A stretch of DNA of 64,000 bases, taken from contig CM059621.1 in the NCBI GenBank assembly GCA_030435675.1, forward strand, positions 5,518,001 to 5,582,000. The letters are read 5' to 3'. The stretch is from Steinernema hermaphroditum (lineage: Eukaryota > Nematoda > Chromadorea > Rhabditida > Steinernematidae). A model generated the notes under the pieces. The model did not search any database. It saw nothing but the letters and a program-made list of their open reading frames with translations, and had not been told where the DNA came from. A program made the translations under genes and the position numbers. Below, piece by piece: positions 51,673 to 63,886 of this stretch (positions are counted from its first letter, which is position 1; each line of letters begins with the position of its first letter).

Positions 51673-53659
51673 TTAGGTTGATGCAAAAGAAATGTCGATC
51701 ATGTTGATTTGGTGCCTGGACACTTGCGCCCCAGACATTTGCGCCCCGCACATTTGCGCCCCGGACACTTGCGCCCCGGACACTTGCGCCCAGACATTTG
51801 CGCCCCGAACACTTGCGCCCCAAACAGCGTCTTCAGGGAAAACGTGATGGGACCTTTCTGACGGTACCCACCGTGGTTTTCACTCCTTTTTTCGGTTTGA
51901 TGACAGCTCATACCGGGACAGCTCATATAACATCGTACATTTCACAGCACTTTTTAGGTTTTTTTGCAAAAGTGTGGCTGCACGCTTTGTAGCTATCCTT
52001 GCGGTCCAACGTGCGTACTATAAGTGCTACTTAAGTCAGCAGCTTCACGCACTTTGCAGCATTATACCTTGCAGTGTTACATAGTTTGCAGTGCCTTAAA
52101 TTTTACATTTGAAATAACATGCGTAATAAATACTGTAAGTTAACCAACTTTTCAATTTATCTTGATTTTTCGGTAATTTTTGTACCACTTCTGTTGTTAT
52201 ATTCGTATTCCTCGTCCTTTTTTGATCTAGGATTGTTGTTCCCCCTACATTTCTCCTTGTCCCTTAGATCAAATGGTATCCCAAAATTACAAGTCCAGAG
52301 TTTTGTGAAATGCTTTTATGAGACAGGTAGGATACAGATTTCCCAAATAGGTAAAAGAACTAGAACAGCCCGAAAAGCAATGAACAGAGCAGGATCAAGC
52401 GGAATCGGGCTCGAGCCTTGTCCGTGGCATCAGCCGTCCATAGGATCAGTTATCTGGGATCAGTTGTCCTGGGATCAGTTGTCTTTGGATCAGTTGCGAT
52501 GACGCCATTTGCATGTATCAACAAGGAGTGAAAACCACGGTGGGTACCGTCAGAAAGGTCCCACCGCATTTTCCCTGAAGACGCTGTTCGGGGCGCAAGT
52601 GTTCGGGGCGCAAATGTCTGGGCGCAAGTGTCCGGGGCGCAAATGTCTGGGCGCAAATGTCTGGGGAGCAAATGTCCGGGGCGCAAATGTCTGGGCGCAA
52701 ATGTCCGGGGCGCAAATGTCTGGGGCGCAAATGTCTGGGGCGCAAATGTCCTAGTACCGTTGATTTTGTTCTTTCTTTCATTATAATAAGTTTCTGTATG
52801 ACATGATTAATAGTTCTTGTAGAGGTTGCACTCGCGCATCGTTTGATATTCCGTCCCGCTGGCCCTTTCTAATTTTAATTTTACGTTAAACATGATCGAG
52901 AAAAAGTGCCCAGTGCGGATTTGCATACCACACAACTTCAAACAAAGCAAGTTTCCTGCCTAATTTCACAGTAGCCCGTGTTAAGTGCTGGAAGAAGATG
53001 TCCCATCCGAATGCATGTGCGAGTGGTGGGTTCAGCGATTCTGAGATGGAGATAAGTGCTTTAAAGACGAAGCACATGGAAAACGTCCCAAATTTTTGGG
53101 TGACGCAGCATTAAAAGAGGTTGTTGAGCTGAATCCGAAAGCAACCTGCTTGAGAACTCACGACAGCGTTTGTGAACGTTAATTAATCAACCACTATGAG
53201 ACGCTTGTATGCCATTTGAAAGATCAATAGGTGTGAAAAAAGGGTCGTTGTAGTCAGATGGCCCGAAAATGGTAGTGGAAATCAGGGGGCAAAATGTACA
53301 AAAAATCAACAACAATCACTATGATTGGAATCCTCCTTCGCAATATGAAGGATAGTTGTTTGACCGCCTTATAGCACAGACATCGCTCCACCTGACTATC
53401 ACTTATTCCTGTCGATGCAGTGCTCCTTGGCAGAAAAAAAAATCAAAAGATGTGAGGAAGACAAAATTTGAGTCACAAACTTTTTCAAGTCCAAACCACT
53501 ATGAATTCGTTCAGTAAGGCATTCACTCTCTACGTGGACATAGGCGACAACTCGTGAATACTAATGGTGAATGTCTTTTGGGTTCAGCTTTTGATTATTA
53601 TACTTTCATGATCAATTTTCTTTTTAACAAAAATCGACATTTCTTTTGCATCAACCTAA
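51673..53659 (+). mobile_element. mariner transposon, decayed, with a nested insertion
   Basis: Perfect 27-bp inverted ends (TTAGGTTGATGCAAAAGAAA inward at 51,673; complement ending at 53,659) with TA on both sides. The ends resemble those of mariner elements. Inside, on the plus strand, a broken frame near 53,000-53,160 reads the mariner helix-turn-helix region (DGDKCFKDEAHGKRPKF, with an in-frame stop in place of the Arg before it). Near 53,390 another frame reads APPDYHLFLSMQCSLAEKK, the region of the last catalytic Asp. Multiple stops and frame changes make it inactive. About 1 kb of its length is a nested foldback element (51,718-52,751). Confidence 0.75.
51718..52751. mobile_element. 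Foldback-type element with 15-bp tandem repeats in its arms
   Basis: Both arms are built of 15-bp units RRACAYTTGCGCCCC: about 7 at the left (51,718-51,825) and about 11, inverted, at the right (52,588-52,751). Inside these, about 65 bp of unique sequence (cagcgtcttcaggg... to ...gtggttttcactcc) is also inverted between arms. The core is about 630 bp, non-coding, and contains four 15-bp units of ggatcagttgtcctg type (about 52,442-52,500). No clear TSD was seen. Confidence 0.7.
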
Positions 53660-60260: not shown

Positions 60261-61358
60261 AAAATTGTGAAATTGTGGGCGGATGTTTACTAAAGGTGCA
60301 TCATGGGAGTTTGAGTTCGATTATTCCTCGAATTCAGCTATTACTATTATACACACTTGTGGTTTTCGTTGATGTATGTCCTTACACTTTGCTTTACCGT
60401 TTTCTTTCAAAACACTTGTGACGGAGTAACGTTCCCACACAATTTAACGTCGATTTCAATAATTTGTTTGTCTCTTGGATGTCTACTTAGTGCTTCAGAA
60501 TTAAATGAACATTGAATAGGCTCCGCCATCCTCGAAGAGATGTGGCCGGTGGTGGCTGCAATTGAATACTTAACATGTATTCTGCTCTGGATCGTCACAC
60601 TCTTCCTTGGCGCCGCCATTATTCATCACACCACACTGACAAGGGAAGTACACAACATGACCCCCGCCGATTTCGATTTCGATTTCGAGAGTAGTAACCG
60701 TGCAAAAAATTAGCTGCCCATACCGGGTAGATTTCGAGAAAAATGCAGGTCTAAATTGGCTATCGGGGTTATAGCCTTCCGATGTAAGCACAAAATCTGT
60801 GTGCGTGTGGTTTTTTTATTTTTTTATTTTTCCTTTTTGTGTTGTGCGCGGTGTGATTTTTGGCGAAGTCACCTATGTACTCTACATGAACGCATAGAAA
60901 AAAACTGTAACAACAGCAGTCAAGACGATATTGGCGCAGTTCAATTCATCATCTCAACAGATAACTTCCACATTTCCACTAGTGTTTATGAGTGCAATAA
61001 TGCATAACAGATCATTGTCCCCTCTTTGTCCTTTAAGAAGATGACAAAGCCGATTTTGTCAGCGACAGACAGCCCGCTGCGCAAGGGCATGTACAATAAC
61101 AAGATCGTAAAAAGCATTCTCTCACACTAGCTGCTCCTTAAGAGGAGATGCCGAATGGTGGCGTTGCCGACCGCTTTCCTCACATCCCTCACATCATCGT
61201 GCTTTTTACTTCCTTCTATATTCATTCCTTATTCGGGGTTTCGCATATTTGCGCGTATTATTTTACGGTTAATAACTAAAATTTGAGATCTCGCTTATCC
61301 CGTCGTAAGCCTCGTGATGAGTTCAACTGCTGAGGACGCGATCACTTTGTAGATAATC

Positions 61359-62022
61359 ATGGCAATGAAAACAAAATCTCGGGGAGCGAAAATTCCAAAA
61401 ATCAAGTGTTACAAGGACACGTTAGAGACTGATTTGCCTGGATGTTATTCACGTCAAAACTTCTTATTGGCGCCCGCTATTCAAAGAGCTCCGCTGGGAA
61501 CTGTTCAACTTGACGCTGCTCTGGCAGCGGCTCGTAAAGAAGAAGAAAGGCGATTTATGCAACAAGTAAGATCAGTCAATCTGATATTGCAATGTTCCTT
61601 TATGTTTAGGTCAGTAGTCAGCCAACAATAATGAACAGCGTAGCAGTGGATGATATCCCGAGGAGGCCTCGACGGTCTCTAGTTAGCCGTTTCGTAAACT
61701 TTCTTCGGCAAAAATTTGGAGCAATGAGAGTGAACGACGAAGTTGCAATCAATACCATGCCCAATATACCAAAGAAAACATTTGTTTGTCAAAAGTGCGG
61801 AATGTCCCTTGAAACTGAAGAACAATTGGAGAGACATCGGAATTTACACATCAAAGAAGGATCAAAGCGGAAACTGTTGCAAAGTCCACCGTCCGAGGCG
61901 TCACGAAATGAACAGAACTTTAATGGGAGCAATGTTGTTTACATTTTGTCCCAACATTTTCCACTAAACAAGGCGACAGCGCATATTTCCGAGGAAGAAG
62001 TGGATTTCGCTAGAGAAATAAT
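61359..62022 (+). CDS. C2H2 zinc-finger protein inside the TIR transposon
   Basis: Exon 1 at 61,359-61,565 starts MAMKTKSRGAKIPKIKCYKD. A 44-bp intron leads to exon 2 at 61,610, which reads on through RRPRRSLVSRFVNFLRQKFG and a C2H2 finger (FVCQKCGMSLETEEQLERH, then NLH) to about 62,022, where a gtaag donor follows. Further on, near 62,087-62,190, a frame reads KCSVCESGSHIRCAHC, YFCLIHF and EEHCC, a Cys/His cluster resembling the C-terminal finger of some transposases (piggyBac type). It may be a third exon, but the joining phase is unclear. Probably an element-encoded DNA-binding protein; host-gene capture is the alternative. Confidence 0.45.
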
Positions 62023-62365
62023 AAGTAAGAAAAACCCGCGGATTTCCAAACCCCGGAAAATTTCTGCTTTAATTTTGAGGGTTTCGAAAAATGTTCTGTG
62101 TGTGAGAGCGGCTCTCATATCCGCTGCGCTCACTGCACGTTGTATTTCTGCCTCATTCATTTCGTTATCGAAGAACATTGTTGTGTGTAAGGTGCTTCAT
62201 TCTAGATGTTTAACCGTTTTCTCTATGTATTCACTGTGGATATCTTAACAGTGTTGTTATTTGATCATGTGTTACTTCAACAATAAAGTGTTTTAGAATC
62301 TGCAAAGCTATGAAAGTGTAAGATATGTACCCCGCACAACACAAAAAGGAAAAATAAAAAAAACA

Positions 62366-62434
62366 GCTTCCTCTGGGATTCGAACCCGGATCCGAAATCT
62401 GGCAATCGGGAGCCTTACCCCTCGACCACACGCA
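62366..62434 (-). repeat. tRNA-derived module in the right arm of the TIR element
   Basis: On the minus strand it has an A-box-like tggtcgaggggtaagg and a perfect B box ggttcgaatcc, followed by a T run. The acceptor stem does not pair, so it is not a working tRNA gene. It is more likely a tRNA-derived internal promoter or SINE head. The left arm has the same flanking bases without it. Confidence 0.5.
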
Positions 62435-63886
62435 CACGGATTTTGTGCTTACATCGGAAGGCTATAACCCCGATAGCCAATTTAGACCTGCATTTTTCTC
62501 GAAATCTACCCGGTATGGGCAGCTAATTTTTTGCACGGTTACTACTCTCCCCAAGATCTATCAGTCCACCAAATTTCAGCGAAATCGGCGGGGGTCATGT
62601 TGTGTACTTCCCTTGTGAGAGCGTTTTACAAGAACTCGCCTACACTGGCATTGCTATTTGCCGCCATCTTCTGGTCGGGCGTCTTCTATCTGTGTGTGCT
62701 TCCATTATGGATGCTCATTTCAAGTGGTCTACTTCCCGGCTTGAAAAACTACGTACAATTTTTACTCACATTAGACATGTTTATCCAGTCTAACCGATTC
62801 ATATACGACGTTGCTACTTTATCTCTGTTTGTGAAGAGACTTCTGATTGTATTGTTCCCCCTGAATCCGCTCAGGACGGTCACCAAATGTTACAATCTCC
62901 TTGGGGCTCTTGCAGTCTTAGCCGTTGTCATCGGTGTTGGTCGAGTCTACATTACTGATATTATCAGCAACGGTGCACCAGTACCCGATGGTATGCTTTA
63001 GTGAGCGAATCTACTTGTCTTTAACGTTTATTGGGACGTGTACAGTTTAATCAGAGAACTCGACAAAAAATGGCAGTTTTCACAATTACACTGGGCCCTC
63101 TCTTGCCAAAACGTTGACTGTAGTCGTGTTTCGAAATCGCTAATGACGTACTCCTAGATTGTTTCGCTCCGTCCTGCATGTCTCAACATAGGATCAATCA
63201 AACAATCTTCACAATACGACTGATTTTGACGTTATCAATTTTATTCTCAGGAACTGCTCTTCTCGTTGTACTACGAAAGACGCCACTCATGCAGAAACCG
63301 AACGAAGCCAAAGTAATATTGATTTTTACCGCTCCACTGATGATTACTTATCCTTCAGGTTAACAAAATGGTACGCTACGTCTTCTATCTGCGCATTATA
63401 CTCGAATTCCTACCAGTCGTCGTGGATCAGATGCTAGCGATAACGGTAAGTATCACACAGTGATTAGAGGCGTATTAAAGTTTCAGGCAAGTAAGCCGTT
63501 GTCATTTTACATTGGACCCTACGGCGCTATGGGTTACACATTGGAATGCTGTGTCGGCACCTTCTTCTACTTCCGAGTATTCTCGAAGAACACGCTTACA
63601 GTTGCGTCTCGGTCAGCAACCTAGACTGTTCCGTGAAAATCAAAACAGAAAGAACTATCCCGCAGGCATCTGTAGTGATAGAAAAGATCAACCGCATGGT
63701 AATATATCACAAAATGTTGCTCTGCAGCACCAGAATCATTATTTGGTGTTTTAACACAATAACACCGGAGTTCATTGTTCTTGGCATACTAATGAATGTT
63801 GGGCTTTTTCCTAGTATTAATTTTGCTGACGATGTCCAATGGTGCTTGTTACAACAGTAACTTCTAAACAGAAAACAAAAGAAACA

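Follow-up and report, generated by a model that had tools for sequence, protein, structure and literature searches.

A non-autonomous Tc4/Tc5-type transposon in the first exon of a putative Srbc-like receptor gene of Steinernema hermaphroditum

The Tc4/Tc5 transposons are a known exception to the TA duplication within the Tc1/mariner superfamily. The title of the Tc4 paper speaks of an 'unusual fold-back structure', and to our knowledge no tRNA-type A and B boxes have been described in the inverted repeats of Tc4/Tc5 elements. The published Tc4 target rule (PMC11071193) is CTNAG, with the central TNA duplicated; the main text of PMC7325037 makes no mention of Tc4/Tc5.

Here we describe an insertion found in a 64,000-nt stretch of the Steinernema hermaphroditum genome, referred to below as the window. 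The lineage of the inserted element resembles the Tc4/Tc5 elements of Caenorhabditis elegans and its relatives (TcMar-Tc4) in its CTNAG target and TNA duplication, its DDE_1 transposase domain, its Tc5-type C-terminus and its long inverted repeats. The A and B boxes in those repeats would be a difference from the C. elegans elements, which are not known to carry them. Taken as a whole, the locus is very probably best explained by an internally deleted Tc4/Tc5-type transposon that inserted at CTGAG within the first exon of a receptor gene of Srbc-like type. The identity of the element, its target site, its deletion and the intact state of the flanking exons are all read from the sequence.

The interrupted receptor gene

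The host gene lies on the plus strand, and its first exon is present as two pieces on either side of the insert.

60540..60639, plus strand: exon 1a of the receptor gene, 100 nt counted from the ATG with the left TGA included; aligns with the N-termini of five paralogues
62619..62990, plus strand: exon 1b of the receptor gene, 372 nt, with donor GTATGC
63158..63312, plus strand: exon 2 of the receptor gene, matching public model P0014
63359..63445, plus strand: exon 3 of the receptor gene
63487..63624, plus strand: exon 4 of the receptor gene, stop codon included

With a single TGA copy counted, the two pieces of exon 1 again total 472 nt (100 + 372), the length given in the initial annotation. 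The same annotation proposed that excision of the insert with one TGA would restore the frame, and this is indeed the outcome: the four exons form an 852-nt open frame of 283 amino acids with no internal stop. The remaining exons, which had been described as intact, are joined across introns with GT/AG borders in all three cases, and we see no coding damage to the gene other than the insert. The public model of the gene, QR680_016332 (P0014, 197 amino acids), is an exact suffix of the 283-residue translation, beginning at residue 87. It starts downstream of the insert and does not include the interrupted N-terminus, which is thus missing from the public model as a consequence of the split exon.

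The homologous site is uninterrupted in five paralogues from the same genome, three of which are found on the minus strand of the window. In each of the five, the matches to both exon pieces overlap within one open frame. The distance from ATG to donor is 472, 472, 469 and 469 nt in four paralogues; in the fifth, L083, the homologous codon is not an ATG, and the distance measured from the next ATG is 466 nt. A DNA search of the genome for an intact allele elsewhere returned, besides the locus itself, only one match (69% over 152 nt), and the empty site that the initial annotation had suggested looking for was not found as such in the genome. We infer the empty-site state from the paralogues.

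The gene belongs to a tandem cluster, and the search with the receptor protein matched four proteins, three of them from S. hermaphroditum. Paralogue P0015 aligns with almost the full 7TM_GPCR_Srbc chemoreceptor model (PF10316; positions 5-272 of 273, E = 0.0012), but its 18.8 bits fall below the 22-bit cut-off; the Pfam profile search gave no match to this model for paralogue P0016. We regard 'Srbc-like serpentine receptor' as a reasonable but unproven name for the host gene.

If the insert is retained, the frame opened by the ATG closes after 57 codons, and the allele in the assembly would therefore most likely yield no normal receptor. An alternative that we consider unlikely is that the insert is tolerated, being either spliced out of the pre-mRNA like a newly gained intron or able to provide a 5' end of its own in the right inverted repeat; the N-terminus of the receptor would then be altered or shortened. 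Tc1 is known to be removed from C. elegans transcripts by splicing, and for the present insert the frame stays open in 17 combinations of donor and acceptor. The right inverted repeat contains a strong acceptor-like TTTCAG before position 62580, and the ATG at 62597, 17 nt past it, is open in frame into exon 1b and could start a shortened receptor. The donors, however, are poor. By a splice-site weight matrix, for which one yardstick acceptor (63251) differs from that of the public model, the best in-frame donor scores -2.3 and the four donors within exon 1a score -6.4 to -1.6, as compared with 1.6, 1.5 and 6.2 for the three donors of the gene itself. The public model, moreover, begins downstream of both the candidate acceptor and the candidate ATG.

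It is very unlikely that function had been lost before the transposon arrived, which would make the gene an older pseudogene and the element a late arrival. Loss of one member of a tandem cluster may be easily borne, yet this member retains its 283-residue open frame and its splice sites intact apart from the insert. That exons 1a and 1b represent two separate genes, or that the split is an assembly error, is hardly credible. Both pieces align to a single continuous exon in the five paralogues, and at the junctions the family termini are exact and flanked by a duplicated TNA, as expected from transposition. The initial annotation had itself named separate expressed genes for exons 1a and 1b as an outcome that would count against its reading; the five continuous paralogous exons argue against this.

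Elsewhere in the window, two tandem arrays of 15-nt units (51718-51826 and 52585-52751) share the same motif (GGACACTTGCGCCCC / TGTCCGGGGCGCAAA); they lie about 0.8 kb from each other and apparently run in opposite directions.

The inserted element and its relatives

The insert had been annotated as a 1,976-bp element with terminal inverted repeats (TIRs) and a 3-bp target site duplication (TSD), and these boundaries hold to the base. Coding remnants in the list are compared with the sister copy L010 and with the transposase QR680_009504 (P0001), both described below.

60637..60639, plus strand: left TSD, TGA, preceded by C (CTGA)
60640..62615, plus strand: Tc4/Tc5-type transposon, non-autonomous, 1,976 bp
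60640..60811, plus strand: left TIR, 172 nt, lacking 19 nt near position 45
61359..61565, plus strand: transposase remnant, first coding exon, from ATG to an apparent donor GTAAGA; boundary set by eye
61610..62027, plus strand: transposase remnant, second coding exon up to the deletion junction; matches P0001 residues 6-43
62027..62028, plus strand: junction of the internal deletion (1,475 bp relative to L010)
62029..62187, plus strand: C-terminal transposase remnant, Pfam Transp_Tc5_C (E = 9.9e-11, 42.3 bits, cut-off 27.4)
62425..62615, minus strand: right TIR, 191 nt
62616..62618, plus strand: right TSD, TGA, followed by G (CTNAG target)

The element bears CAAGGGAAGTACACAAC ends. The left and right TIRs are 88% identical with indels, and their longest ungapped arm extends over 125 nt at 99% complementarity, far above chance. 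Just inside the left TIR, the window copy is missing a 55-nt tRNA-type stretch that is present in L010. The TTTCAG acceptor of the right inverted repeat (window 62575-62615) faces outward, with the in-frame receptor ATG 17 nt further on.

L010 (C1:2124816-2128359, 3,544 bp) has TAA at both sides and is a candidate full-length element. One of its exons contains both DDE_1 and Transp_Tc5_C, each above the Pfam cut-off, and further exons align with P0001. The motifs NTDQT, LDSWS and QPLD, whose D residues we presume to be catalytic, can all be read in the L010 exons. A protein search with the transposase exon of L010 returned 13 proteins, the best of which is QR680_009504 from S. hermaphroditum itself. 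This protein is 54% identical over 70% of the query exon and carries HTH_Tnp_Tc5 and DDE_1, but within this genome it forms a lineage of its own, diverged from that of L010. HTH_Tnp_Tc5 was not detected in the L010 exons, which were scanned unspliced, and comparison of the L010 exon with solved structures gave no match.

Aligned with L010, the window copy shows 22 mismatches, of which 15 are confined to two slippage tracts (element positions 37-47 and 172-179), leaving seven substitutions outside them. There are five gaps, of 19, 55, 18, 1,475 and 1 nt. L010 DNA is 98% identical to the first coding exon of the remnant. Only P0001 residues 6-43 can still be aligned to the window copy, in an exon that also contains a C2H2-like finger under the Pfam cut-off (E = 0.0025), and the catalytic part of DDE_1 is gone. 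Because the 1,475-nt deletion took the catalytic domain, the window copy is non-autonomous.

The family includes rearranged members as well. L009 (C2:13532592-13533812) is a 1,221-bp fold-back composed of inverted copies of the 3' end, about 581 and 586 nt long, around a 54-nt spacer; judged by the title of the Tc4 paper, it is comparable to C. elegans Tc4. The 3' 590 nt of the window element are about 99.1-99.5% identical to both L009 arms. In L014 (C2:17620300-17625100), a hAT element (Dimer_Tnp_hAT) sits inside a Tc5-type copy, where it apparently interrupts the B box. We dropped the notion that L014 is a hybrid of Tc5-like ends and a hAT transposase: the copy aligns with L015 over 1-239 and once more from 2646 onward, and since the match resumes past a hAT bordered by inverted CAGGGATGTGCG ends and an 8-bp duplication GTTCGAAT on both sides (by eye), the hAT is nested.

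The near-identity of the window copy to L010 and to the L009 arms points to recent activity of the family, and these identities would bound the age of the insertion only loosely. In the reading that we prefer, a non-autonomous element was cut from elsewhere and pasted at CTGAG in exon 1, whereby TGA would have been duplicated. It was most likely mobilized in trans by the transposase of a full-length element, for which the 3,544-bp relative on C1 is a candidate. The insertion appears to be recent on an evolutionary scale. A recent TIR insertion with a 3-bp duplication in an otherwise intact exon is also what the initial annotation described, in keeping with the few differences from L010 and the lack of further coding damage.

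Target site and family assignment

A DNA search of the genome with the left end gave at least 40 matches (40 of 69 first-look candidates scored). A search with the 17-nt terminus, allowing up to one mismatch, located 22 ends, 17 of them exact, and none with the reversed control. Altogether 41 ends were read from the window and 29 genome stretches, which are a subset of the copies of the family. CTNA precedes 40 of the 41 (CTCA 15, CTGA 10, CTTA 9 and CTAA 6), and 34 of 35 when only distinct flanks are counted; the sole departure is the right end of L010, with TTTA. The same trinucleotide is found by eye on both sides of 11 of 14 two-ended elements, a set in which three were paired from end-search positions and from which L016, whose right end was not recognized, is excluded. 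The trinucleotides are unequal in L011, L012 and L088/L089. L011 and L012 share flanks and should probably be counted once among the mismatched elements, while L088/L089 adjoins an inverted duplication.

Members of the family duplicate TNA, and the TGA at this locus is one instance of it; the TA duplication of strict Tc1/mariner elements is not seen. The initial annotation had held that its interpretation would fail if TGA were not duplicated at other insertions. Taken literally, this is what we find, as other copies duplicate TCA, TAA or TTA; yet all of these fit TNA within CTNAG.

Duplication of surrounding DNA is suggested at two places. L011 (C5) and L012 (C4) are located on different contigs and have both flanks in common, and an inverted pair at C3:8273279-8294368 has one flank in common. 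The three elements with unequal trinucleotides are among these copies.

Transp_Tc5_C in the window copy, DDE_1 together with Transp_Tc5_C in L010, and CTNA ends that fit CTNAG lead us to assign the element to the Tc4/Tc5 group of the Tc1/mariner superfamily. The initial annotation had found its family not obvious; the domains and the CTNAG/TNA rule now provide a name. PIF/Harbinger, the best-known group with a 3-bp TSD, would share that length and the palindromic CTNAG core, but its duplication is TWA whereas the TSDs here include TGA and TCA, and it is refuted by a transposase that matches DDE_1 and Transp_Tc5_C, with no Harbinger-type domain reported. A hAT identity is ruled out by a duplication of 3 rather than 8 bp, the hAT dimerization domain in L014 being that of the nested element.

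tRNA-type boxes in the inverted repeats

The right inverted repeat of the window copy contains one further feature.

62375..62428, minus strand: tRNA-type A and B boxes with a following T-run, directed inward within the right inverted repeat

In the typical inverted repeat of the lineage, an A-box-like TGGTCGAGGGGTAA and a B-box-like GGGTTCGAATCC are spaced about 41 nt start to start, point inward and are followed by a T-run. Eleven elements provided 22 repeat arms, and 17 of these show the pattern when one mismatch is permitted per box. The arms that do not have it are the left arm of the window copy, which carries the 55-nt deletion, the left arm of L014, which carries the hAT insertion, and the right arms of L013, L015 and L026, which are rearranged or partly deleted. 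The exact pattern is found at 29 places in the genome, counted irrespective of the element in which they lie, and at none with the reversed control.

Over the 17 arms, two subfamilies have the same majority base at every one of the 14 A-box and the 12 B-box positions, a comparison that favours the boxes in that the five arms without the motif were removed beforehand. In the stretches between the boxes and just outside them, agreement falls to 56% and 58%. The outer 130 nt agree at 83-89% between the subfamilies, so conservation in the repeats is not limited to the boxes.

We reject the motif as a tRNA, given that neither ARAGORN (bacterial settings) nor Rfam at the gathering threshold recognized one in the window. 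In a permissive Rfam scan of five copies, the B box gave only 9.7-bit tmRNA matches, and hairpin matches below the gathering threshold were also returned (e.g., RUF6-5, 41.9 versus 70). The A and B boxes would thus be a promoter-like motif at most. Possibly, and we put this forward tentatively, the repeats carry working inward RNA polymerase III promoters that have been maintained by selection in two diverged subfamilies and yield short non-coding RNAs, one of which promoters the window copy would have lost. Literature searches showed no title clearly concerned with A and B boxes in such repeats, which is no proof that they are unpublished. If transcribed, the boxes would be an unusual feature for the Tc4/Tc5 group.

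The insertion of a non-autonomous Tc4/Tc5-type element into a receptor exon is a known kind of mutation, and the A and B boxes are the less ordinary part. S. hermaphroditum is an insect-killing nematode that is being developed as a genetic model, and the locus offers a specific instance of recent Tc4/Tc5 activity in this species that can be put to the test, together with a likely full-length relative.
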